Below the pieces are notes generated by a model that saw nothing but the letters and a program-made list of their open reading frames with translations, did not search any database and was not told the origin of the DNA. Shown here piece by piece: positions 17,227-39,972 of a stretch of DNA of 39,972 bases (positions are counted from its first letter, which is position 1; each line of letters begins with the position of its first letter). This DNA is from a virus, in IMG/VR virus record IMGVR_UViG_3300005537_000041, positions 1 to 39,972 of that record; one strand, written 5' to 3'. Both the position numbers and the translations under genes were made by a program.

Positions 17227-17757
17227 ATGTCCAACTACATCATCAGCAATCCCATTGCCGGCATCCTGCCCATCACGGGCACCGATTCCGGGGTCACTCA
17301 GGCCAACGCTTCGTCCGCGGCCCCCAGCCCCCCGATGTATCCGGGGATGGTCGTCCGCGCGACGGATGCGACCTTGGGTTCCGGTGAGTTCATCCTTCTG
17401 GCAGGTGTTGCCTCGACTGCCGTGGGCTCCGTGGTGACTTACAACACCGCGAGCTTCACGACCGCCCTGGCTCCAGTGGGAGCGAACAAGCCGCAGCCGA
17501 TCGCCATCGCCATGGTCGCCAATACCAGTTCCTCGAAGTGGAGCTGGTATCAGATCAGCGGGACGGCGGTTGCGAAGAAGACCTCGGCGCTGGCGCTCGG
17601 CTCCAATGCGGCGGTGGGTGTGCTTACCACGGGCCTCATTGCGGCCACGGCGACGGGCAAGGAAGTGCAGGGCGCTCTTACGGCCGCGAAGGCCACGACG
17701 CCCACGACGGTCACTCTCATCATCAACCGTCCGCACATGCAGGGCCGCATCACTTGA
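17227..17757 (+). CDS. Capsid-associated (decoration-type) protein, 176 aa
   Basis: A GGAGA ribosome-binding site precedes the ATG. The product is Ala/Thr/Gly/Ser-rich and beta-strand-like, with GSGEFILLAGVASTAVGSVVTYN and TTVTLIINRPHMQGR. It follows the major capsid gene, where many podoviruses place small head proteins. No enzymatic motif is seen. The last codons overlap the extended frame of the next gene. Confidence 0.7.
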   Translation: MSNYIISNPIAGILPITGTDSGVTQANASSAAPSPPMYPGMVVRATDATLGSGEFILLAGVASTAVGSVVTYNTASFTTALAPVGANKPQPIAIAMVANTSSSKWSWYQISGTAVAKKTSALALGSNAAVGVLTTGLIAATATGKEVQGALTAAKATTPTTVTLIINRPHMQGRIT

Positions 17758-17846
17758 AAACGGAATGGGTCCATTGGAACCCCGGAGCGAGTGAACCGCT
17801 CCGGGTTTCCCTTGATGTCGAGTGCAATACCTCGACGGAGAGAATC

Positions 17847-19079
17847 ATGGACAACATCCGCGTCAATTCTGCGGGACGCAAAGGATGGCAGAAGCTCGAA
17901 GAAGCACATGAGCGGATCGCCATCCTGTGCGGCTCGGGGCCGAGTCTTGCCGATACCCTGGGAGAAATCCAAGCCATCGATGGCGATGTCTTCGCCTTGA
18001 ATGGTGCCGGGAAATTCCTGTTCGGAAAGGGCATTACCCCGGAGTACCAAGTCATTCTCGATGCCCAAAGGGAAACCGCCGACCTCATCGGGCCGGCGAA
18101 GCAATATCTCTTTGCCTCCCAGGTGGATCCCGAGTGCTTCAAGCGGATTCCGAGCGCGAAGCTCTGGCACGCCACCCATGGGGAGATTGCTCCGGAATTT
18201 CCCGAGTATGAAGACGACTATTGCATGGTCGGTGGAGCGGTTACGGTCGGAAATGCTGCGCTCCTCCTCGCCTATGTGATGGGTTATCGCACCATCCACT
18301 GCTTTGGGTACGACTCCTCGCACCGCGGGGCCGCGGGGCATGCGTTCAAGCAGAGCATGAATGACGGCGACCCCCTCACGATCGTGGAGTTCAACGGCAA
18401 GGAATATACAGCCTCACTCACGATGCGGCTCCAAGCCCAATACTTCCCGAGCAGGGCGCGGGCTTTGATGGATGCGGGTTGCAAGATTTCGGTCCATGGC
18501 TCCGGCCTTCTTCCCGACATGTTCAACACGAAGCTCTCGGAGAAGGAGAAGTACCGCGCGATGTGGAAGGAAGATCAATACCGCATCGTGTCTCCGGGGG
18601 AATCGGTCGCCAATACCTTCGTGGAGGTTTGCGGAATCGATGCCGGCCACATGGTGATCGATTTCGGCTGCGGAACCGGGAGAGGGGGCCAGAGAGTCCG
18701 CGACATGACCGGAGCTCGCATGCGGCTTGTGGACTTCGCGGAGAACTGCCTGGACCGTGATGTCGATCTTCCTCTCACCATATGCGACCTTACCAAGCCC
18801 ATGGGGCTGCGTGCGGAGTATGGGTTTTGCGCCGATGTGATGGAGCACATTCCGCCGCAGGACGTTCGTTCGGTCCTCGAAAATATCTTCGCTTGCACGC
18901 CGAAGGCCTTCTTCCAGATCAGCCTCGAGCCCGATTCCATGGGCTCCCTCATCGGCAGGCAACTTCACCTTTCCGTCTTTCCCTATGCGTGGTGGGCGGA
19001 TCAATTTCGCTCGTTCGGGAAGATTCTTTGGTCCGAAAACCGGGGCGCATCTGCCCTTTTCTATGTGGAGAAAACATGA
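17847..19079 (+). CDS. MptE/DUF115-like domain fused to a SAM methyltransferase
   Basis: ATG at 17847 follows GGAGAGAATC; an alternative in-frame TTG at 17754, overlapping the previous stop, would add 31 residues that also look coding. The N-terminal part has ILCGSGPSLADTLGEI, then ITPEYQVILDAQRETADLI and MVGGAVTVGNAALLLAYVMGY with a HCFGYDSSHRG loop, the pattern of the DUF115/6-HMPDK (MptE-like) fold. The C-terminal part holds a class I methyltransferase motif I (DFGCGTGRGG) and EHIPPQDV. The two-domain product is unusual inside a head-gene cluster. Substrate unknown. Confidence 0.75.
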   Translation: MDNIRVNSAGRKGWQKLEEAHERIAILCGSGPSLADTLGEIQAIDGDVFALNGAGKFLFGKGITPEYQVILDAQRETADLIGPAKQYLFASQVDPECFKRIPSAKLWHATHGEIAPEFPEYEDDYCMVGGAVTVGNAALLLAYVMGYRTIHCFGYDSSHRGAAGHAFKQSMNDGDPLTIVEFNGKEYTASLTMRLQAQYFPSRARALMDAGCKISVHGSGLLPDMFNTKLSEKEKYRAMWKEDQYRIVSPGESVANTFVEVCGIDAGHMVIDFGCGTGRGGQRVRDMTGARMRLVDFAENCLDRDVDLPLTICDLTKPMGLRAEYGFCADVMEHIPPQDVRSVLENIFACTPKAFFQISLEPDSMGSLIGRQLHLSVFPYAWWADQFRSFGKILWSENRGASALFYVEKT

Positions 19080-19973: not shown

Positions 19974-20869
19974 CCACGATGCTTCAGCTCGTCCAGCAAG
20001 CCACGGGCGAGATGGGGCTTGCTGTGCCTGCGAGCGTGGCGGGCAATTCTTCAACGGACGTGATTCAGCAACTCGCGCTCCTCAATGCCGTGGGCTATGA
20101 GGTGTCGCGGGAATTTCCGTGGGAGGCGTTGAACAAGCAATACATCTTCACGACGACCTCGACAACCTTGGTCGGAGATACGGCCGCAGGATCTTCTACG
20201 GTCAGCAACATCGTATCTACCGCGGGCATCGACTCGAACTATCAAATCTCGGGCGTCGGGATCAACAACGGCACTTTCATCACAGCAGTGCCGAGCGGAT
20301 CGACGCTCACCCTTTCCCAGCCGGCAACTGGAACTGCTACGGGAACGACCTTCACCCTGGCGAAGGTCAAGTATGCGATGCCCTCGGACTATGACCGGCA
20401 GATCGATCGCACCCACTGGGACAAGACCAAGCACTGGGAAATGCTGGGGCCTGAGACGGCCCAGCAATGGGAATGGCTGATCTCGGGGTATATCTCGACC
20501 GGCCCGCGGATTCGCTATCGCATCTTCGGCTCGAAACTGCAGATTTGGCCCATGGTGACGACTGGCGATGTATTGGGATTCGAGTACATCGCCAATAGCT
20601 GGGCTGCGGATACCACGGGAGCAGCGAAGACCTCCCTCACGGTCGATACGGATACGTGCATCTTCCCCGACCGCTTGATGGTGTTGGGGCTGAAGAAGAA
20701 GTATTTCGAGATCAAGGGATTCGCCCCCGTCTTCGATAGGGACTACCAGAAGGAACTCGACATCGCCAAGGCGAACGATGCCGGTTCGCCCACGCTCTCC
20801 CTCGCGCCGAAAGTTTCCAACGTCCTCATCAACTGGACGCAGATCCCTGACAGCGGGTACGGCTCATGA
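19970..20869 (+). CDS. Head-tail adaptor / tail tube-type protein
   Basis: ATG overlaps the previous stop. The 299-aa product begins MLQLVQQATGEMGL and has the helical plus beta plan of podovirus adaptor/tail-tube A proteins: ALLNAVGYEVSREFPW, then a beta insertion rich in Thr/Gly, VKYAMPSDYDR and FEYIANSWA. P22 gp4 and T7 gp11 bind the portal in this way. Assignment by order and pattern; sequence identity not assessed. Confidence 0.75.
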   Translation: MTTMLQLVQQATGEMGLAVPASVAGNSSTDVIQQLALLNAVGYEVSREFPWEALNKQYIFTTTSTTLVGDTAAGSSTVSNIVSTAGIDSNYQISGVGINNGTFITAVPSGSTLTLSQPATGTATGTTFTLAKVKYAMPSDYDRQIDRTHWDKTKHWEMLGPETAQQWEWLISGYISTGPRIRYRIFGSKLQIWPMVTTGDVLGFEYIANSWAADTTGAAKTSLTVDTDTCIFPDRLMVLGLKKKYFEIKGFAPVFDRDYQKELDIAKANDAGSPTLSLAPKVSNVLINWTQIPDSGYGS

Positions 20870-22425
20870 TGGTCGCCACGCGCCGCGCTGTTGCGAAATC
20901 CACCTCGATCACCTCTCCCATTGGGGGTTTGAACGCTCGAGACTCCCTCGCGGCGATGCCTCCGCAGGATGCGGTCATCCTTGACAACTTCTTCTGCACG
21001 CCGACCACGGTTGATTTGAGGAAGGGCTATACGCAATGGGTGACGGGGCTTCCCGCCCATGTGGAAAGCCTCATGCCGTACACCTCGGCTACCAAGCAGG
21101 CCATGTTCTGCGCGTCGGGGACGGCCTTCTATGACGTGACCTCGAGCGGGGCTGTCGGCGCTGCAGTGCAGGCGGGGCTTACGAATGCCCGCTGGCAGTC
21201 GGCCAACATGGGAACGCCTGGGGGACAATATCTCCTTGCCGTCAACGGCGCTGACAAACTCCGCGGCTATGACGGAACTTCCTGGTGGACCGATGGGGAT
21301 GGAAGCCATGACATCACGGGAATAGATACCTCCAAGTGCATTCATGCCAACAGCTTCAAGAATCGCTTCTATTTGGTGGAGAAGAATAGCTTCCGGGTTT
21401 GGTATCTGCCGCTGAATAGCATTGCGGGGGCCGCAAACTCCCTCGATCTCTCGCCGCTCTTTACCTTGGGCGGCTACTTGATGGCGATGGCGACATGGAC
21501 CGTCGATAACGCTGCCGGCATCAATGAATATGCGGTTTTCCTGTCTTCGGAAGGACAGATCGCGGTTTATCAAGGCTATGACCCCTCGAACTCGGGAAGT
21601 TGGTCGCTTGTTGCGGTCTTCCGGGTCGGACGCCCCATTGGAAGACGCTGCTTCGAAAAACTTGGCTCTGATCTCATCATCATTTGCGCCGATGGGTTCA
21701 TGCCGCTTTCGAAGGCGATGCTCACCGATCGCTCGCAGCTTCAGGAGGCGCTTTCCTCCAAGATCCTCAATCTCGTCAACACGGACGTTGCGAGGTATGG
21801 CAACAACTTCGGCTGGCAGCCGATCCTCTATCCGATCGGGAACAAGTTCATCGTCAACGTCCCGCAGAGCGAAAACGCCACGCAGTACCAATATGTCCAG
21901 AACACGATCACGGGCTCTTGGAGTCGCTTCACCGGCTGGAATCCGAACGTCTTCGCCCTCCTGAAGGATGACCTCTGGTTCGGGAGCAATTTGGGGAGCA
22001 CGCCCAATTCCGCGTTCGTCGCCAAGTGCGATCGCGGAACCTCGGACGCCGGGACACTCATCTTTGGCGAAGTGCAGACCGCCTTCCAATACTTCGGGAG
22101 TCCTGGGCTTTTGAAGCGCTTCACGATGGTTCGGCCCGTCTTCAATACTGCGGGGACTGCAACGCCGGTGATCGGCCTGGACGTGGACTTTTCGAGCAAC
22201 AGCCCTACTGGGACGGCTTCCTTTTCCGGGTCGTCGGGGGTTCCGTGGAATACGACCCTCTGGAACACGACGCCTTGGGGTTCGACCACGCAGATTCAAA
22301 AGACTTGGCAGGGCGTGAATGGCGTTGGATATTCCGCGGCCATCCACATGAAGGTCGCCAGCAGTACCGCGCTTATCTCCTGGATGAGCGTGGACTATGT
22401 TTTTGAAGTCGGGGCGCAACTATGA
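20866..22425 (+). CDS. Tail stabilisation protein, P22 gp10-like
   Basis: Start overlaps the previous stop. The 519-aa product reads like a podovirus stopper/stabilisation protein: SPIGGLNARDSLAAMPPQDAVILDNFF and a following WVTGLPAHVESLM, then repeated beta-propeller-like units (GDVFAL-type strand turns, WYLPLNSIAGAAN, SEGQIAVYQGYDP) and KRFTMVRPVFNT. These seal the head and carry the tail hub. No lysozyme or enzyme motif is visible. Confidence 0.8.
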   Translation: MMVATRRAVAKSTSITSPIGGLNARDSLAAMPPQDAVILDNFFCTPTTVDLRKGYTQWVTGLPAHVESLMPYTSATKQAMFCASGTAFYDVTSSGAVGAAVQAGLTNARWQSANMGTPGGQYLLAVNGADKLRGYDGTSWWTDGDGSHDITGIDTSKCIHANSFKNRFYLVEKNSFRVWYLPLNSIAGAANSLDLSPLFTLGGYLMAMATWTVDNAAGINEYAVFLSSEGQIAVYQGYDPSNSGSWSLVAVFRVGRPIGRRCFEKLGSDLIIICADGFMPLSKAMLTDRSQLQEALSSKILNLVNTDVARYGNNFGWQPILYPIGNKFIVNVPQSENATQYQYVQNTITGSWSRFTGWNPNVFALLKDDLWFGSNLGSTPNSAFVAKCDRGTSDAGTLIFGEVQTAFQYFGSPGLLKRFTMVRPVFNTAGTATPVIGLDVDFSSNSPTGTASFSGSSGVPWNTTLWNTTPWGSTTQIQKTWQGVNGVGYSAAIHMKVASSTALISWMSVDYVFEVGAQL

Positions 22426-24843: not shown

Positions 24844-26120
24844 AGACTCAAAGCCAGCAACCTCCGGCTGCCGGCAACCCTTTGGCGCGGGGAACTGGCG
24901 CTGCGCCGAATACGGGCGGCATTCCCGGCACGAATCCGATTGCGAGCGGCTACGCGCCGACTGCGGCCAATACGCCGGCAAATCCCGGTGCCGGTGGCGA
25001 CCCATTCGGCGGGCATGACCCATGGGATGTGGCGATCGGGATGTATTCGAATCCCGCGCAGACTCCGGCAGCTCCGCCTTCTCCGCACGCGGTTCCCACG
25101 GCTCCGTCGCCTTCGATGCAGCCGGCGATCACGCAGAACGTGCAGCCCGCTCCGGCATCGGGACAGGTTGCGGCCCCGCCGAGCGCGATCGCTCCGCCTC
25201 CTGCTCCCATCACGCCTTCGACCTTCGACCAATCGAACTCCCAGCTATTCCCCGGCGGGAACGTCCCACAGGTCATGCAACAGGCGCAAGACGCGGCCTA
25301 CCACCAAGCCACAGGCTACCTCGATCCGCAATTTGCGAATCAGGAAGCCGCCTTGCGTTCCCAGCTCGCCAACCAGGGAATCATGGAGAACTCGGAGGCC
25401 TGGAATCGTGCGATGGACGATTTCCAGCGGAACAAACAATTGGCCTACAGCAGCGCCGAGAACGCGGCCTATGGGCAGGGCTTGACCGCGCAGAACCAGG
25501 TCGCCAATCAGGTGTTGGAGCAATTGGGACTGCGGACGCAGCAGAACGTCGCGCAGACCGGGGCTAACGCTTCGATGTACGGCTCCCAGTTGAACGCGCA
25601 AACCGCGGCGAACATCTTGGCCGAGCAGCATTCGCAGAACCAGTATTCGGACGCCCTGGGGCTTCGCAATCAGGACATCAATGAGCTTCTGCTAGAGCAG
25701 CAGAACCCGCTCTCCATGGCGAACCAGTTGACGGGCGGGCAGGGCGTTCAATCCCCCAATTTCACCAGCACGCCGGGAACGAACGTCGATCCCACGAACA
25801 TCGCGCAAATCATCCAGCAGGCATTGGGACAGCAGAACAACGTCTACAACACACAAGTGGGGGCGACGAACTCCTCCAATGCAGGTATGGCGACCATCAT
25901 TGCCGCGCTGCTCTCCGATCGCCGACTCAAGACGAACATCAAGCAAATTGGGATGCATGAATGCGGCGTCCCGCTCTACTCCTACAACTATGCAGATGGA
26001 AAACCCGGATTCGGCGTCCTCGCGGACGAGCTCGAAAAGGTCCGCCCCGATGCGGTATGGAGCGATGAAAACGGCCTCAAGGTCGTCAACTACGCGGCCA
26101 TCTCGAAGGTGGATCGCTAA
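24840..26120 (+). CDS. Virion protein ending in an S74-type autochaperone motif
   Basis: ATG overlaps the previous stop. Residues 1-150 are Pro/Ala-rich and disordered; the middle is a Gln/Asn-rich helix with NQEAALRSQLANQGIMENSEAWNRAM, a pattern of phage tail-associated proteins. The last 70 residues begin SDRRLKTNI (Ser359, Lys364), the catalytic Ser-Lys signature of the peptidase S74 intramolecular chaperone, followed by GFGVLADELEKVRPDAV. The S74 region is short compared with typical ones, about 70 residues. Autocleavage is likely but unproven. Confidence 0.75.
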   Translation: MKTQSQQPPAAGNPLARGTGAAPNTGGIPGTNPIASGYAPTAANTPANPGAGGDPFGGHDPWDVAIGMYSNPAQTPAAPPSPHAVPTAPSPSMQPAITQNVQPAPASGQVAAPPSAIAPPPAPITPSTFDQSNSQLFPGGNVPQVMQQAQDAAYHQATGYLDPQFANQEAALRSQLANQGIMENSEAWNRAMDDFQRNKQLAYSSAENAAYGQGLTAQNQVANQVLEQLGLRTQQNVAQTGANASMYGSQLNAQTAANILAEQHSQNQYSDALGLRNQDINELLLEQQNPLSMANQLTGGQGVQSPNFTSTPGTNVDPTNIAQIIQQALGQQNNVYNTQVGATNSSNAGMATIIAALLSDRRLKTNIKQIGMHECGVPLYSYNYADGKPGFGVLADELEKVRPDAVWSDENGLKVVNYAAISKVDR

Positions 26121-27808
26121 TGGCTACCGCCTTCGGTCTGCCGGAGATTGCATCCCTCTACGATCCGAATATCGCGGTCGATCAAGTCGCGCTGCAACGG
26201 CGTATGGCGATTGCGCAAGCGTTGCGTCAGCAGGCCATGACGCCGCTGGATACCTCGGGCCGTCAGATCGGCGGCATGGGCTACAAAATCAGCCCGTGGG
26301 AGGGCGTTGCAAAAGCCGTGCAGGCCGTGATGGCGGGCCAGCAGGACACCGCGAACGATCAAGACCGCCTTGCGTTGCAGCAGAAGATGGCGCAGGCGCT
26401 TCTCGGGCAACAGGCTCCTCAAGGGCAACCCGCGCCTCAGCAAGCCCCCGCGCCCGTATCTTCCGCGGGAGCGCCCTCGTCGCCACTGCCGCAGGGACAG
26501 CCAACTGCACAACCGGCGCAAGGCCCCGCCATCGGCGGAATTGGCATTGGCGACTTATTCAAGGGAGGTGTCGTCAACGACATCGGCGGTCCCGCGATGG
26601 CTGCGGCGTATGCGAAGAACTTCGAGCCGACAGATTTCGCGCGAGCGCTCCGCTCCGCAGGCATCGATCCCAATTCCGCGCTCGGGCATCAATTGGCGCA
26701 GGACAACATTGCCAAGGGGAACTATATCCCGCCCGTTTCCGGCCGTCCCGGCGGCTACCTTGAAGACCCGAAGACGGGGCGGATCACGTCTCTCCCGAAC
26801 ACGCCTCCGGGCTATGTCGCCACACAAGACCCGAACTCTCCGACCGGCTTTACCACGCAGCCTCAGCCTGGCGGTCCTGCGGCCGTGCAGGGTGCCGCGA
26901 AGGCGAAAGCTATCGGCGAGGCGTTCGGCGATGTGCAACCGACCGTTGACCGGAGCGGACAGCCGCAGCCGGTTCAGAGTAGGGCCAAGGCGCTGGGCTA
27001 TGGAGATGACGGGAATGTCGCTCCCGCCACACAGACGGCGCGTGATGCGCAGTCGCGTCAGTTGCTCGCCGACGAACTGCGCAAGTGGCAGGCGGCCCCG
27101 GATTCCTCGGCCAAGGTGGCGAACATTAAAGACATTCAGACGCAGATGGGCGGCCTTACGGATCAGCCCTCGGCGTCCTATGTTGCCCCGCCCCTTGGCA
27201 CGTCGGAAGCGCAAATCTCCCTCGATAAGAAATGGGAGTCGCAACTCGCGGCGAATAAAGAAGCGATGACGACGAGTTCATATTTGGACAACATCGTTTC
27301 GGCTGCTCACAAGGGGGCAATCGTTGGCCCTGGCGCTGATCGGCGCGAGCTCGTGCAGGGGTTCCTTCAACTCGCTGGCATCAATGAAAACGTCAACAGC
27401 GATGCGGTGACGCAAACCCAATTGCTGGACAAGTATCACAACCAGATTGTCGCGCGTTTGGGCCAAGGTGGCCTCGGGACGGATGCCGCGCGCGCGATTC
27501 TCGATACAGCCTATCCCGGCAAGCCGATGAATATCGGTGCCATTGATGAGGCCGCGGCCAATCTCAAGGGAGCGCAGGCGATGACGCAGGCGCGGACGCG
27601 CTTCCTTCAGCCTGCCGCTAGTAAGCGCGATCAAAACGACTATGCCAATCGGGAAATCCAGTTTGACCAAGCTGCCGATCCGCGTATTTGGCAATTCAAA
27701 AATCTTCAAGACCCAGCGGCGCGCTCGGCTTTTGCGAAACAGGTTCTCTCGCAAGATCCCTCATTTCCCGCTCGCATCAAGCAACTTGAATCTATGGGAG
27801 CGCTGTGA
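26120..27808 (+). CDS. Internal/ejection-type protein, 562 aa
   Basis: ATG overlaps the previous stop (TAATG). The first 100 residues are helical and Gln-rich (QRRMAIAQALRQQAM), then come a Pro/Gln-rich linker and a domain with PPVSGRPGGYLEDPKTGRI. The C-terminal 200 residues are helical, with AAANLKGAQAMTQART and YANREIQFDQAADPRIW. It lacks enzymatic motifs, and its place before the larger ejection protein fits an internal virion protein. The name is based on context. Confidence 0.65.
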   Translation: MATAFGLPEIASLYDPNIAVDQVALQRRMAIAQALRQQAMTPLDTSGRQIGGMGYKISPWEGVAKAVQAVMAGQQDTANDQDRLALQQKMAQALLGQQAPQGQPAPQQAPAPVSSAGAPSSPLPQGQPTAQPAQGPAIGGIGIGDLFKGGVVNDIGGPAMAAAYAKNFEPTDFARALRSAGIDPNSALGHQLAQDNIAKGNYIPPVSGRPGGYLEDPKTGRITSLPNTPPGYVATQDPNSPTGFTTQPQPGGPAAVQGAAKAKAIGEAFGDVQPTVDRSGQPQPVQSRAKALGYGDDGNVAPATQTARDAQSRQLLADELRKWQAAPDSSAKVANIKDIQTQMGGLTDQPSASYVAPPLGTSEAQISLDKKWESQLAANKEAMTTSSYLDNIVSAAHKGAIVGPGADRRELVQGFLQLAGINENVNSDAVTQTQLLDKYHNQIVARLGQGGLGTDAARAILDTAYPGKPMNIGAIDEAAANLKGAQAMTQARTRFLQPAASKRDQNDYANREIQFDQAADPRIWQFKNLQDPAARSAFAKQVLSQDPSFPARIKQLESMGAL

Positions 27809-29838
27809 GCCTCGCTGATGACTTCCTACAAGCTGCGGATGTAGCCGATCAGGGGATGCCGTCATCCCTCTCCGATCAGTTCGCTCAAGCCGCCCAAGGC
27901 GCGCCGCCCCCGCCTCGTCGGCCATTGCAGCCTCCGCAAGAGCTTTCCTTGATGGACCGGCTCCTCGCCCACGTTCCGGATTCGCTCGTCAACAACAGGG
28001 CAATGACTGCGGTGCGCGGGACTGTGATGGGCGCTGCCGATCCGGTTGTGGGAACCGCACAGGCGGCGGCGAACCTCTTGCCGAACTCGACGGGCATTCC
28101 GCAGGCCGTCAACCAGGCCGTGACGGACAAGGATGCGCAGTACCAAGCCGAGCGCCGCGGGCAGGGCATGACCGGCTTTGACCCCGCGCGCATGGGCGGC
28201 AACTTCCTGTCGCCCGTCAATTTGGCGATGGCGTTGCGCGCCGCTCCGGCGGTGACTGCTACGGCGCGGGCTTTTCAGGGGGCGGGAACTGGATTTGTTG
28301 GGGGCCTAACCGCGCCTGTCGATGTCGGACCCTCCGGAAACTACTGGGCACCCAAGGCCGTGCAGACCACCCTTGCAACCGCCGCCGGAGGTGTATTGGC
28401 TCCCGCCGCCGGCTGGATTGGGGACAAGGCCATTCCGGCCGTGAACTCTCTTATTGCAAGATTCAAAGGCGGCATGGATCCAGCCGAGGCCGCAGCGAAG
28501 ACGGATTCGATCCTCTCTGATGCCCTCTCGGAGACGGGGCAGACGACAGAAAATGTTCCGCCCGCGCAACTCGCCGTGGTGCGCCAGCAAGTTCAGGATG
28601 CGCTATCGAAGGGCAAGAAGCTAGATGCCGCCGCAGCGCTTCGTCTCTCCGATTTCGAGGCGCAGGACATTCCTTCCACGCAAGCTCAGATCACCCGCGA
28701 CCCGATGCAGTTTGCCGACGAGCAGACCATGCGGTCTATTAGCCGGCCCCTCAATCAAACGATGGAGCTCGGCAACAAGAAGGTAACGCAGGGCATCGGG
28801 CAATACAGCGCAAACGCTGCAGAGGCTCCGGTTGCGGCCGCGGATCTCGCTACGGCGCTACGCAACTATGACGCCAGCAAAGCCGCAAACGTAAGGACCG
28901 CATATGCAACTGCTCGCGCCTCAGCCGGGAAGGATCTGGAGGTTCCAACCGCGGGCCTGACGGATGCCTATAAGCAAACCATGGAGGATTTTGGCGATTA
29001 CGTTCCCAAGGTACTGCAAGACAAATTCTCGGCGCTAGAGAAACAGCCCCTCACCTTTGAAGGGGCCGACAAACTACGCCAGAGCATCAATACTCTTGTA
29101 ACCAATGATCCGAATGACCGCACGAACCTTGCCCTTGGGACGCTGCGCTCCGCGCTGAATAATGCGCAGAAGGAGGTATCCGCGACTGGTGGGCCTTTCG
29201 CCCCCGCGGTGAAACTTGCCTCTGAGCGATTCGGACAGCAGGAAGCCATTCCAGCCCTTGGGGCCGCAGTCAACGGAGATGCCGGCGACAACTTCGTCCA
29301 AAAGTATGTCATCAACGGGCAGACGCAGGATGTTCAAAAACTCGCTTCACTCCTGCGCGAACAAGCGCCGGATGCGTTCGACCAAACTCGGCAACAGATC
29401 GGGGCGCATCTCGCGCGCAAGGCGTTCGGCGAGAACGTAGCCGCCGACAAAGCCGTCGCCCAGGAAAGCTACAACAAAGCGCTTCGTGAGCTCGGGACCG
29501 GAAAGCTAGGGGCGTTCTTCGAGCCGCAGGAGGTGGATCAACTTCAGCGCCTCGGAAGAATTGCGGCCTACCAACAATCGAATCCTGCCGCAGCGGCCTC
29601 CAACTTCTCGAACAGTGCTGGCGCGTTTGCGAATCTTCTGAGGAGCGGGGCGGGGCTTCCCTTTGCGGGAAAGACCCTGCAGTTCGCAGGAGAAAAACTA
29701 GGCGGCTACGCCGCTACGCATCCCGTTGTTCCCATCACCGGGAACATGAGCGATGCGCAACTACTGATGCTCTCGAACCTGCTCCGTGGCGGAAGTGGCG
29801 CGGCTGGCCTTGCGCTTTCCGGGGCTGTAGGACAGTAG
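27805..29838 (+). CDS. Large DNA-ejection protein, 677 aa
   Basis: GTG at 27805 overlaps the previous stop. This is the second largest protein. The N-terminal third has a hydrophobic/amphipathic segment (VMGAADPVVGTAQAAANLLP and VGGLTAPVD), then long helices rich in Ala, Gln and Asp (AADLATALRNYDASKAANVRTAY). The last residues form another hydrophobic Gly/Ala run. The plan matches ejection proteins of P22/T7-like phages that cross the envelope. No lytic transglycosylase motif was seen. Confidence 0.7.
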   Translation: MSLADDFLQAADVADQGMPSSLSDQFAQAAQGAPPPPRRPLQPPQELSLMDRLLAHVPDSLVNNRAMTAVRGTVMGAADPVVGTAQAAANLLPNSTGIPQAVNQAVTDKDAQYQAERRGQGMTGFDPARMGGNFLSPVNLAMALRAAPAVTATARAFQGAGTGFVGGLTAPVDVGPSGNYWAPKAVQTTLATAAGGVLAPAAGWIGDKAIPAVNSLIARFKGGMDPAEAAAKTDSILSDALSETGQTTENVPPAQLAVVRQQVQDALSKGKKLDAAAALRLSDFEAQDIPSTQAQITRDPMQFADEQTMRSISRPLNQTMELGNKKVTQGIGQYSANAAEAPVAAADLATALRNYDASKAANVRTAYATARASAGKDLEVPTAGLTDAYKQTMEDFGDYVPKVLQDKFSALEKQPLTFEGADKLRQSINTLVTNDPNDRTNLALGTLRSALNNAQKEVSATGGPFAPAVKLASERFGQQEAIPALGAAVNGDAGDNFVQKYVINGQTQDVQKLASLLREQAPDAFDQTRQQIGAHLARKAFGENVAADKAVAQESYNKALRELGTGKLGAFFEPQEVDQLQRLGRIAAYQQSNPAAAASNFSNSAGAFANLLRSGAGLPFAGKTLQFAGEKLGGYAATHPVVPITGNMSDAQLLMLSNLLRGGSGAAGLALSGAVGQ

Positions 29839-29945: not shown

Positions 29946-31028
29946 TTGCCCTTTAATGGCTCCGGCCTCTTTTCCCGTGTCTATAGCTGGGTTGTCGATG
30001 CTGGCAACAATGTGGAAATCGATGCTGCCCGGATGGACACAGATACCAACGACATCGCAACGGGCCTATCCAACTGTGTCACGAAGGACGGCCAGCAGAC
30101 GATTACGGCGAACTTGCCCATGTCGGGATTCAAGCTCACGGGCCTTGGCATTGGCACTGCGGCCGCGGACTCGGCGATCGTCTCGAACGCCAACTCCCTA
30201 ATGTGCGAGTTCCGCCTGACTCTCACCAGTGGAACTCCGGTCACAACTTCCGATGTGACGGGGGCGACAACGCTCTATTGCTCGCCCTACAAGGGGAATC
30301 GCATTGCCCTGTTTGATGGAACTAACTGGCATATGCGCTCCTCGGCTGAGTTCAGCATCGCGCTTGGGACTTTGACGAGCGCGCTTCCATATGACGTTTT
30401 CTGCTACGACAATTCGACCGTCCCGACGCTGGAAATTCTGGCATGGTCTAGCGCAACAGCTAGAGCAACTGCGCTTACCTTGCAGGACGGCGTGCTGTCG
30501 AAGACTGGGGCTTTGACCCGTCGCTATCTCGGCACGTTCTACACGACCGCTACGACCACGACGGAAGACTCCCTCGCCAAGCGCTTCGTCTGGAACTACT
30601 ACAACCGCGTGAGAAGGCCCATGCGGGTCACGGAGGCGACGGATACCTGGAACTATTCAACCGCGACAGTTCGGCAGGCCAATGCTTCCACGGCGAATCA
30701 GTTGGACATGGTTATTGGGGTGAGCGAAGACCTTGTCTCGGCGGAAATCAATGCCGGCGTTCTTCCGGGGAGTGGCAGCACGGCAACGATTGTCGGTGTC
30801 GGCGTTGATGTCACGAACGCTTTCACTAGCGGTGGATTGTTTGGAAACGCCTCGGGTAGCACTGTTGCCATTTGGCTGAAGGCATCTTGGAAGGGTTTCC
30901 CCGGCGTCGGACGGCACTTCCTCTCATGGAATGAATATGCGGCAGCGAGCGGGACTTCTACGTGGCGCGGCGATGGCGGGGCTCCGACGTTGGAGCAGAG
31001 CGGCATTCATGGCGAAGTTTGGAGTTAG
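29946..31028 (+). CDS. Tail fibre-type protein, 360 aa
   Basis: TTG start at 29946 is chosen because GGAGG lies five bases upstream. The N-terminal part has AARMDTDTNDIATGLSNCV and LPMSGFKLTGLGIGTAAADS, the phage fibre motif in which an MxGxKLTxLG element precedes a beta domain. The middle contains YKGNRIALFDGTNW and the rest is beta-rich with Thr/Ser/Gly. It probably binds the host surface. It follows the ejection genes and precedes the lysis cassette. Confidence 0.8.
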   Translation: MPFNGSGLFSRVYSWVVDAGNNVEIDAARMDTDTNDIATGLSNCVTKDGQQTITANLPMSGFKLTGLGIGTAAADSAIVSNANSLMCEFRLTLTSGTPVTTSDVTGATTLYCSPYKGNRIALFDGTNWHMRSSAEFSIALGTLTSALPYDVFCYDNSTVPTLEILAWSSATARATALTLQDGVLSKTGALTRRYLGTFYTTATTTTEDSLAKRFVWNYYNRVRRPMRVTEATDTWNYSTATVRQANASTANQLDMVIGVSEDLVSAEINAGVLPGSGSTATIVGVGVDVTNAFTSGGLFGNASGSTVAIWLKASWKGFPGVGRHFLSWNEYAAASGTSTWRGDGGAPTLEQSGIHGEVWS

Positions 31029-31400: not shown

Positions 31401-31502
31401 GTGAATTTCTGGCCCCTATGGAGATTCTATAAGCGCGCTGCCCGCGTGGGGTTTCTCATCCTCCTCATTGCAGGAGCCTGCAAGGTGATCGCGCTCCTGT
31501 GA
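31401..31502 (+). CDS. Tiny membrane protein of 33 aa
   Basis: GTG at 31401-31403, between the holin and the DUF5675 gene, its stop overlapping the latter's GTG. It has a basic aromatic start (FWPLWRFYKRAARVG) and a single transmembrane helix (FLILLIAGACKVIALL). A small protein after a holin is a candidate antiholin or lysis timing factor. Evidence is position and hydrophobicity only. Confidence 0.55.
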   Translation: MNFWPLWRFYKRAARVGFLILLIAGACKVIALL

Positions 31503-31879
31503 ACCTCATGCTGCAACGTGAGCCGTTTTCAGACTTCTCCGTGAAGGGCGAGCTCTACATGGATGGCGTGTATTTTTGCTACACGCTCGAAAGGCCGGAA
31601 GAAGGAGAGATCAAGGCGATTCCATCGGGAACCTATCCCGTGGTGATTTCCTACTCTTCTCATTTCCAGCGGAACCTCCCGCACATCATGGACGTGCCCG
31701 GTCGTTCTGCAATCCTCATGCATGGAGGGAACAAGCCCGAAGACTCCCTCGGTTGCGTTCTCTGCGGCTACAGCGAACTGGGAGAGGATTCCATCGGGGA
31801 TGCTCAGGCTGTAACCGATCTTCTCAGCGCCCTGGTGGACGCTGGGGGTCATGCCCGTATCGCGGTGCTCGACCCATGA
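31499..31879 (+). CDS. DUF5675 protein in endolysin position
   Basis: GTG at 31499 overlaps the previous stop. The 126-aa protein has the DUF5675 pattern: LMLQREPFSDFSVKGELYMDG, YTLERPEEGEIKAIPSGTYPV, then VPGRSAILMHGGNKPEDSLGCVLCG. The HGG...S-x-G-C block (His75, Ser83, Cys86) resembles the catalytic His/Cys spacing idea of L,D-transpeptidase folds. No muramidase, amidase or peptidase is otherwise visible in the lysis cassette, so this may be the phage's cell-wall enzyme. That is a hypothesis. Confidence 0.8.
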   Translation: MNLMLQREPFSDFSVKGELYMDGVYFCYTLERPEEGEIKAIPSGTYPVVISYSSHFQRNLPHIMDVPGRSAILMHGGNKPEDSLGCVLCGYSELGEDSIGDAQAVTDLLSALVDAGGHARIAVLDP

Positions 31880-32406
31880 TCGTCTTCCTCAAAGCCGCAT
31901 GGGCGGTCGCCAAGCTGATTCCGTGGCAGGTGTATGCGGTCGTTGTCGCCGCCATTTGGGTCTACGGCTATGGCGTTCACGAACATACCTTGGGCTACAA
32001 CGAAGCGAAGGGCGAAGACGCCAAAGCCCAAGCCGAACAAATGGCGTTCTACCAGAAGCGCGTTGCGGAGATCCAAGCCAAGCAACAGGAAGTCATCATC
32101 AAGACGGTCACGGTCTACCGCGACCGAATCAAAATCGTGAAGGAGAAAGGCGATGAAGTCATCCGCGAGATTCCCGTCATTGTTGGCGATGCTCCTGTTC
32201 TTTCTGGCGGGGTGCGCGTCGCCCATGATGCCGCCGCCCTTGGTCACTTGCCCGACGATCCCGAAGGAGCTGCTCGAGCCGCCGCCCCCGTTGAAACCAC
32301 TACCTTGCTGCGAACCGTCGCAGAGAACTACGAATCCTGCGAAGCAACCCGACAACAACTCATAAGCCTTCAGTCCCTCGTGTCAACCCTAGGAGAAAAG
32401 CAATGA
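31876..32406 (+). CDS. i-spanin (Rz-like)
   Basis: ATG at 31876-31878 overlaps the previous stop. The 176-aa product starts with one transmembrane helix (KLIPWQVYAVVVAAIWVYGYG) and continues as a long periplasmic helix (EQMAFYQKRVAEIQAKQQEVIIKTVTVYRDRIKIVKEKG), the plan of lambda Rz. It pairs with the o-spanin encoded inside it to bridge and fuse the membranes at the last lysis step. Confidence 0.85.
   Translation: MIVFLKAAWAVAKLIPWQVYAVVVAAIWVYGYGVHEHTLGYNEAKGEDAKAQAEQMAFYQKRVAEIQAKQQEVIIKTVTVYRDRIKIVKEKGDEVIREIPVIVGDAPVLSGGVRVAHDAAALGHLPDDPEGAARAAAPVETTTLLRTVAENYESCEATRQQLISLQSLVSTLGEKQ
32153..32365 (+). CDS. o-spanin (Rz1-like), embedded in the Rz gene
   Basis: A second frame inside the i-spanin gene. 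The 70-aa product has a signal sequence ending in the lipobox LAGC (near residue 21) and a Pro-rich mature part (PMMPPPLV, LLEPPPPLKPLP), as in Rz1. The complete nesting in a different frame is typical of lambda-type spanins. Confidence 0.85.
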   Translation: MKSSARFPSLLAMLLFFLAGCASPMMPPPLVTCPTIPKELLEPPPPLKPLPCCEPSQRTTNPAKQPDNNS

Positions 32407-33310: not shown

Positions 33311-33350
33311 TTGAAAACAGGCACTTAGCATCTTCCGGGGCGGGGCAAAA

Positions 33351-33398
33351 GGACTTTTAATCCGTTGGTCACTGGTTCGAATCCAGTACGCCCTACCA
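33351..33398 (+). other. attP core: 3' half of a tRNA-Lys(TTT) gene
   Basis: From GGACTTTTAATCC (anticodon stem-loop with TTT) through the T-arm ACTGG-TTCGAAT-CCAGT (33371-33387) and acceptor strand ACGCCCT to the encoded ACCA end, this is the 3' part of a tRNA-Lys. No D-arm or 5' acceptor strand is present upstream, so it is not a whole tRNA gene. It lies 14 bp from the integrase stop and is the expected crossover region that restores the host tRNA after integration. Confidence 0.88.
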
Positions 33399-33411
33399 AT
33401 AAATCAAGGAC

Positions 33412-34404
33412 TTAGGCCGCTTTCTTGGCCTTCGTCCTTTTCCTGATGGGCGCTCTGATGGGCTTGAGCGCCTTTTCCAGGGCTTTCCTTCGGGCTCCCA
33501 TGTCCGTATGGACGTAGCGCCGATGGGTCTCCACGGACTTGTGCCCCATGATGTCCATGGACACCCGTAGATCGGCCCTGGAACGCGCCAGGGCGCTCGC
33601 CACCATGTGGCGAAGGTCATGGTAGCGGATGTCGAGCTTGGCCTTCTCACGGGCTCGCTCGAAGCCCCTATAGACATTCCGCCAGCCGGCGCGGAAGGGG
33701 ATTTGGGATAGGTGGGGCTTCAACTCGGGCAGGATGGGGATGATGCGATCGGCCCCGTTCTTCGTGTCTCGGGCGACGATTACCCCGCCTTTCACGTCCG
33801 ACGGAGTGAGCTTCAGGACTTCCCCCAGGCGAAGGCCGGTATAGGCCGAGAGGGCGATGAGGGCCTTGGCCCTAGCCGTGGAGGCTTTCTCGATCAGGAG
33901 CGCGGCCATTTCGGGGGTCACTTCCCGGCGCTCATACTTCTTCTCCGGTAGGAGCTGGATCCTCGAGGAGAGGTTTTCTTCCGTCCAGCCCTTGCGCCAT
34001 GCGAACTTGGCGACGGCCTTTAGGATGCAGAGCCGGCGATTAATCGTCCCCGGCTTGAGCGTTCCCACCTTAATGCATTCAACTGCCCGTCCAAGCTCGC
34101 CCAAAGCAAATCCATCTGATACTGAAATAACGCAGCTTGCGTGGCTTCGCGTTGCCTTTTCGCTCTTTCGTCCCGTAACCGCTTCAGCCAACCAGGTGTT
34201 GATGGCGCTTTCAAGGGTGACATTTGGCCTCTTTCCTATGACCGCTTGGTCGATGTAGTCGTGCCGGAGACGAGTTTCAAGCTGGGACGCCTGCTCTTTC
34301 GTCGCGCCGGGCGGGAGCCGTCGAAAAATACGACTTCCGCGCACCTCGAACTCGACGGCATAGCGCTTCCTGCCTTGCTCGTCTTTCCATCCCCGGACCC
34401 CCAT
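33412..34404 (-). CDS. int: Tyrosine-family integrase
   Basis: The 330-aa protein has a basic N-terminal arm-binding domain (RGWKDEQGRKRYAVEFEVRG), a core-binding domain (about residues 60-160) and a catalytic domain with the full set: Arg192 in TGLRLGEVL, Lys215, His262 and Arg265 in YHDLRHMVAS, His288 in MGHKS and the nucleophile Tyr297 in RRYVH. It recombines attP with the tRNA-Lys attB. Located at the end of the leftward operon next to attP, and its start is inside the excisionase frame. Confidence 0.95.
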   Translation of the reverse strand: MGVRGWKDEQGRKRYAVEFEVRGSRIFRRLPPGATKEQASQLETRLRHDYIDQAVIGKRPNVTLESAINTWLAEAVTGRKSEKATRSHASCVISVSDGFALGELGRAVECIKVGTLKPGTINRRLCILKAVAKFAWRKGWTEENLSSRIQLLPEKKYERREVTPEMAALLIEKASTARAKALIALSAYTGLRLGEVLKLTPSDVKGGVIVARDTKNGADRIIPILPELKPHLSQIPFRAGWRNVYRGFERAREKAKLDIRYHDLRHMVASALARSRADLRVSMDIMGHKSVETHRRYVHTDMGARRKALEKALKPIRAPIRKRTKAKKAA

Positions 34405-39674: not shown

Positions 39675-39926
39675 TTATGCCTTTCTGGTCAGTAGGAGGC
39701 GGGTGTTCATGTGCTTTGGCGGTGCTGGGGTCGATTGCTGTGTGTCTACCAGTTGATCCGGGTCTTTCATCGCGGCTTGCTTATCGAGCCACTCGCCCTT
39801 GCTGAGGGTGCGCCCCGGCAATAGCCGATCATTGGTCTGGTCGTATTTCAAATGCCCCTCCGAAACCAATCGGCGCACCTCTTGCAGGAGTCGGTTGTTC
39901 GGATCGATAAAGCTGCTCACGGCCAT
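39675..39926 (-). CDS. Hypothetical 83-aa protein spanning the circle junction region
   Basis: ATG at 39924-39926 lies inside the terminal repeat; AGGAAA is upstream. The first 40 residues (FIDPNNRLLQEVRRLVSEGHLKYDQTNDRLLPGR) look like a short helix-beta domain, and the tail is Pro/Gln-rich. In the circular genome it follows the RNA ligase gene directly. No known function. Confidence 0.6.
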   Translation of the reverse strand: MAVSSFIDPNNRLLQEVRRLVSEGHLKYDQTNDRLLPGRTLSKGEWLDKQAAMKDPDQLVDTQQSTPAPPKHMNTRLLLTRKA

Positions 39927-39972
39927 GGGTCGATTTCCTAGTTACGAATGAAGCTCAAACAATGAACTTCAG
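39863..39972. repeat. Terminal direct repeat, right copy
   Basis: Exact copy of bases 1-110. It includes the start codon region of the 83-aa gene and the 3' end of the RNA ligase stop region. Removing one copy gives a circle of 39,862 bp. Confidence 0.97.

Follow-up and report, generated by a model that had tools for sequence, protein, structure and literature searches.

A DUF5675 protein with a predicted L,D-transpeptidase fold is the probable endolysin of a podovirus lysis cassette

Enzymes of the YkuD fold act as transpeptidases, carboxypeptidases and endopeptidases and can detach proteins from the cell wall; the full YkuD motif is HG(S/T)-X10-(S/T)XGC-phi-R(M/L) (PMC12729407). An altered L,D-transpeptidase fold is found in the type VI effector Tlde1, and the catalytic residues of Tlde1a are His121, Ser128 and Cys131 (PMC9638812). 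For phages, PhaLP holds ten YkuD entries, and DUF5675 is not listed among its contents (PMC8310338). The idea of an L,D-carboxypeptidase/transpeptidase encoded beside a phage holin has already been partly anticipated by GenBank annotation of crAss-like phages. Protein gp30 of crAss001, which belongs to the DUF5675 family (33% identity by tblastn), carries this name and is encoded two genes after a 'lysis regulatory protein/holin'; the name comes from annotation only. The 2018 paper on crAss001 reports three genes of lytic function, and its main text has no mention of an endolysin, carboxypeptidase or transpeptidase. Elsewhere in the literature covered here, DUF5675 is mentioned in two papers, in gene lists only, and we found no enzymatic test or survey of the family.

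The window analysed here is a whole virus record of 39,972 nucleotides (IMG/VR IMGVR_UViG_3300005537_000041) that carries a 110-bp direct terminal repeat (1–110 and 39863–39972). Because of this repeat we take the record as a complete, circularly assembled genome, so that the absence of a gene from it is meaningful. The original prediction, made from the sequence of the window, placed a DUF5675 gene in the endolysin position of a cassette with a holin, a tiny membrane protein and an Rz/Rz1 pair, and matches to PF18925, PF16083 and phrog_4952 together with a lipobox bear out this arrangement (Table 1). The virion protein gene ahead of the cassette marks the lysis slot, and the same gene order is seen in related podoviruses. 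The DUF5675 gene shares four bases with each of its neighbours: GTGA at 31499 joins the stop of the membrane peptide to the DUF5675 start, and ATGA at 31876 joins the DUF5675 stop to the Rz start. The membrane peptide is possibly a second holin or an antiholin.

Table 1. Genes of the lysis region and the conserved block of the DUF5675 protein (window coordinates)
Feature	Position	Strand	Evidence or remark
Tail-fibre/virion protein, precedes lysis cassette	29946..31028	+	phrog_13989
LydA-type holin (holin superfamily III), 122 aa	31031..31399	+	PF16083, E about 1e-14; phrog_785 holin, 1.8e-15
33-aa single-span membrane peptide	31401..31502	+	translation VNFWPLWRFYKRAARVGFLILLIAGACKVIALL
DUF5675 protein, 126 aa, GTG start, proposed endolysin	31499..31879	+	PF18925
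His75–Val87 codons, H-G-G-N...S-L-G-C-V block	31721..31759	+	homologue alignment
Rz-like inner-membrane spanin	31876..32406	+	phrog_4952, 5.8e-29; weak Rz-like spanin matches
Rz1-like outer-membrane lipoprotein spanin	32153..32365	+	lipobox LAGC; within Rz in another frame, as in Rz/Rz1 pairs

Two other features of the genome may be recorded here. A stretch at 33340–33400 (ttcgaatcc...) that looks like a tRNA 3′ half adjoins an integrase gene (33412–34404) and is probably the attP core; no whole tRNA was found by ARAGORN. Amid the head genes, a single ORF (17538–19079) matches MptE-like (PF01973) and methyltransferase domains.

The match of the 126-aa protein to DUF5675 (E 4e-25) lies above the Pfam gathering threshold (88.3 bits, cut-off 26.7) and covers most of the model (profile positions 2–105 of 114); the corresponding PHROG family, phrog_1501, is labelled 'unknown function'. 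The original prediction had singled out His75, Ser83 and Cys86 as recalling the catalytic residues of L,D-transpeptidases. All three occur at these positions, and in 88 distinct homologues the histidine and the cysteine are invariant (88/88) at a fixed spacing of 11, while 82 of 88 have Ser or Thr at the position of Ser83, forming an (S/T)-x-G-C block. Judged from sequence, such a cysteine with a preceding histidine is a mark of the YkuD superfamily, and we propose Cys86, His75 and Ser83 as the putative catalytic set of DUF5675. The full motif of YkuD proper is not present, the His-to-Cys spacing being 11 instead of about 16 and the Arg that classically follows GC being found in 0/88 homologues. 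Neither the window protein nor any of the 88 has a hydrophobic N-terminus, and no signal peptide is seen in the window protein. When 30 DUF5675 members were compared with Pfam, all stayed below the thresholds of both Tlde1 (PF10908) and YkuD proper (PF03734); Tlde1_dom was the second-best family in 7 of the 30 (best E 0.014) and YkuD matched in one (E 0.066). The window protein had no match to Tlde1 (PF10908) at E up to 10. At one other locus (L048, 6001–6948) the DUF5675 frame stays open through a further segment, which has a lipobox-like SCG and ends in low-complexity sequence, possibly an outer-membrane lipoprotein fusion or a frameshift.

Structure prediction, the check proposed for the suspected resemblance to L,D-transpeptidases, agreed with it. 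An AlphaFold2 model (model 1), calculated from an alignment of 30 diverse homologues with 35–43% identity to the window protein, reached a mean pLDDT of 93.7. When Foldseek candidates were re-aligned (VIA-align), 13 entries of YkuD/L,D-transpeptidase fold scored Z 7.2–8.9, and the next, unrelated rows 2.2. For an AlphaFold model of another DUF5675 member (model 2, pLDDT 96), 17 YkuD-fold entries scored Z 7.5–9.9 and the next row 2.1; among them were Pgp2 (Z 9.9, rmsd 2.5 over 108 residues), Csd6 (8.8), DpaA (8.7), Tlde1a (8.6), LdtMt2 (8.5) and YkuD (8.4). The relationship emerged only at the re-alignment step: Foldseek by itself gave no significant match against the PDB (best E 0.05), hhalign found no match to four E. 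coli LDTs, and a DUF5675 profile run against the sequences of solved structures gave chance matches only. Z values in this range can reflect a mere common arrangement, and we consider the relationship to go beyond that because all high-scoring rows belong to one superfamily in both models. Both confident models thus have the YkuD beta-sandwich fold.

Since DUF5675 lacks the classical Arg and has a His/Ser/Cys design like that of Tlde1a, the modelled family is best placed within the YkuD superfamily as a branch resembling Tlde1, outside YkuD proper. The solved structure of Tlde1a, one of the fold-library matches, aligns with model 2 over 106 residues at 20% identity. Both have a short His-to-Cys spacing (10 in Tlde1a, 11 in DUF5675), and in both the (S/T)-x-G-C block lacks the Arg of YkuD. 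They differ in context, Tlde1 being secreted as a toxin and paired with an immunity protein whereas DUF5675 occurs in phage lysis cassettes, and in sequence, the His of the Tlde1 (S/T)HGC being mostly another residue in DUF5675, whose scores fall under the Tlde1 Pfam threshold. Pgp2, Csd6 and DpaA, the closest solved folds to model 2 (Z 8.7–9.9), resemble it also in that they cut rather than build; however, they are cellular enzymes of another sequence family (about 9–16% identity to DUF5675), and the chains of Pgp2 and Csd6 (286–316 aa) are much longer.

The original prediction further held that the phage encodes no recognisable muramidase, amidase or endopeptidase. A Pfam scan of the 58 ORFs of this complete genome, in which 17 families were matched, detected no wall-hydrolase family. 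The genome is without a recognisable endolysin, undescribed families being possible. One candidate for a hidden endolysin, the gene at 20866..22425 (+) that matches phrog_5107 'amidase', was rejected: Pfam shows no amidase domain in it, and its relatives are P22 gp10-like stabilisation/neck or tubular tail B proteins. The 'amidase' label of phrog_5107 is a misnomer that misleads endolysin surveys.

Known lysin families were also sought across DUF5675 carriers. GH24 lysozyme was detected in 0/34 DUF5675 records compared with 9/26 sibling podovirus records that do not have DUF5675 (p = 7e-4 for 0/27 v 9/26). Six-frame searches found Amidase_2, M15_3, M15_4 and CHAP each in 0/29 DUF5675 records and NlpC/P60 in 0/34; the GH19 profile gave no match in these records, a negative that carries no information because the controls gave none either. 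SLT turned up in two DUF5675 records, where its frames are 824 and 413 aa long, GH108 turned up in a single record, and a cell wall hydrolase is annotated in the DUF5675 carrier Salinibacter phage M8CRM-1.

A survey of gene neighbours, likewise proposed with the original prediction, also pointed to lysis. By crude ORF calls and a crude membrane-gene criterion, DUF5675 directly adjoins a small membrane-protein gene at 21 of 34 loci, compared with 5 of 63 control genes from the same loci (p = 2e-8); an adjacent small membrane gene was not detected at the remaining 13. Some loci, L006 among them, show the complete arrangement again: membrane protein(s), then DUF5675, an Rz-like gene and a lipoprotein. 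In large Vibrio and Pseudomonas phages the neighbour of DUF5675 is the portal gene and not a holin. In three records of large T4-like or Ackermannviridae phages (L182, L184 and L185) the portal gene is directly followed by DUF5675, no holin lies nearby, and GH24 lysozyme was not found. DUF5675-like domains also occur within very large proteins (BFVD A0A1L7N1E2_2 of Ralstonia phage RP31, and A0A8S5VTR0), suggesting virion-associated versions.

A line of evidence beyond the checks proposed with the original prediction came from related phages in which known endolysins take the place of DUF5675. Searches with the window's own holin and Rz gave too few relatives for matched pairs, and the pair L114/L126 was used instead; searching with the Rz of this pair yielded two more phages (L191 and L193). 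All four have a homologous Rz, and one gene alone separates the holin region from it. This gene encodes DUF5675 in L114 (the same record as L192), Peptidase_M15_3 (PF08291, 1.7e-6; PHROG endolysin) in L126 (the same record as L190), Peptidase_M15_3 (4.7e-18) in L191, and Phage_lysozyme GH24 (4e-12) in L193, and in 4/4 it shares four bases with the start of Rz. L114 and L126 are about 84–86% identical across ~14 kb of structural genes, and their similarity resumes at the Rz junction. A homologous holin is common to L191, L192 and L193 (L190 does not show it), and the DNA similarity between L192 and L191 spans holin and Rz and skips the lysin gene. Other relatives of the window podovirus have GH24, M15, CHAP or peptidoglycan-binding lysins in the corresponding region, and one has a GH19 endolysin there according to the note in its record. 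GH24 and M15 phage endolysins, unrelated to DUF5675 in fold and chemistry, are found in close relatives at the same place, ahead of the same Rz gene. From comparison of these sequences, the pattern is that of non-orthologous replacement of an endolysin, and it is the strongest evidence for DUF5675 as an endolysin.

We consider it very probable that the DUF5675 protein is the endolysin of the window phage, with an activity that we infer and an L,D-transpeptidase fold where endolysins usually have that of a lysozyme, amidase or peptidase. This reading is well supported computationally: the gene lies in a holin–spanin cassette, the genome has no other recognised endolysin, the fold and the invariant residues fit, and relatives carry known endolysins at the same locus. 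To this extent the original prediction holds; its description of the role as a new functional assignment was too strong, as the GenBank names in crAss-like phages predate it.

As to mechanism, the lack of a signal peptide suggests holin-dependent release, as does the adjacent holin. DUF5675 would be made in the cytoplasm and reach the periplasm through the lesion formed by the LydA-type holin. There a Cys86–His75 thiol centre on the YkuD fold may attack the peptide stems of peptidoglycan. In the most likely reaction, the L-centre of meso-DAP3 on a donor stem would form an acyl-enzyme, D-Ala4 leaving together with anything attached to it. Resolution of this acyl-enzyme by water would open a 4,3 cross-link, an L,D-endopeptidase/carboxypeptidase activity. 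Rz and Rz1 would then disrupt the outer membrane. Cleavage by a thiol at mDAP–D-Ala is our assignment of the exact bond, and the case for it is about evenly balanced.

Several folds closest to the models belong to enzymes that could assist lysis instead of causing it. Thus, DUF5675 could detach outer-membrane lipoproteins in the manner of DpaA or trim tetrapeptides and so help the spanins, the wall itself being broken by an unrecognised enzyme or by inhibited wall synthesis. These closest folds include DpaA as well as two carboxypeptidases, Pgp2 and Csd6, YkuD enzymes can detach proteins from the wall (PMC12729407), and several virion proteins of the window have no assigned domain. However, the slot in near relatives is filled by true M15 or GH24 endolysins with no extra lysin, and the window itself shows no further recognised one. 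An accessory protein is not expected to swap places with an endolysin, and for this reason we regard such a role as unlikely.

Less likely still is a role in modifying or re-cross-linking the wall as an L,D-transpeptidase, for example to block superinfection or to protect the cell until lysis; the place of the gene in the cassette would then be incidental. YkuD-fold enzymes are best known as cross-linkers, the GenBank names say transpeptidase, and the gene adjoins a portal gene, away from holins, in some large phages. Translational coupling between the membrane peptide and Rz, enrichment beside membrane genes, exclusion of other endolysins from DUF5675 genomes and the in-place swap with endolysins all argue against a merely incidental position. 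Finally, the real endolysin could lie elsewhere, for example as an undetected domain of the ejection proteins at 26120–27808 or 27805–29838, leaving DUF5675 with a structural or unrelated function. In the related Sulfitobacter phage phiGT1 the corresponding virion protein does include a FlgJ-like muramidase domain, and DUF5675 itself can be part of large virion proteins in jumbo phages. But phiGT1 also encodes an endolysin separately, so its virion domain is no replacement for one, and no muramidase-type domain was detected in the window proteins; we hold this to be very improbable, the least credible of the three.

If DUF5675 is an endolysin, a function would be given to a family that is of unknown function in Pfam and PHROG and occurs in more than 200 deposited phage records, those of crAss-like gut phages included, and the gap of the missing endolysin would be filled in many DUF5675 phage genomes. 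Lists of phage lytic domains would gain a Cys-dependent, L,D-specific class now scarcely present in them, and lysins of this type would cut a bond untouched by the usual muramidases, amidases and D,D-endopeptidases. In its broadest form, the proposal is that DUF5675 constitutes a widespread endolysin class with thiol acyl-transfer chemistry at mDAP3–D-Ala4, where the acyl-enzyme is possibly resolved by water or by free D-amino acids and a cross-linking fold has turned into a cross-link breaker; it might equally prove right or wrong. Carriers of the family include crAss-like, Vibrio, Campylobacter and Salinibacter phages and the ssDNA Microviridae. In a microvirus with a 6.4-kb ssDNA genome, DUF5675 (L180, 3650–4042) lies between the pilot-protein and replication genes; M15 endolysin-like genes were noted earlier in Microviridae (PMC3394797).
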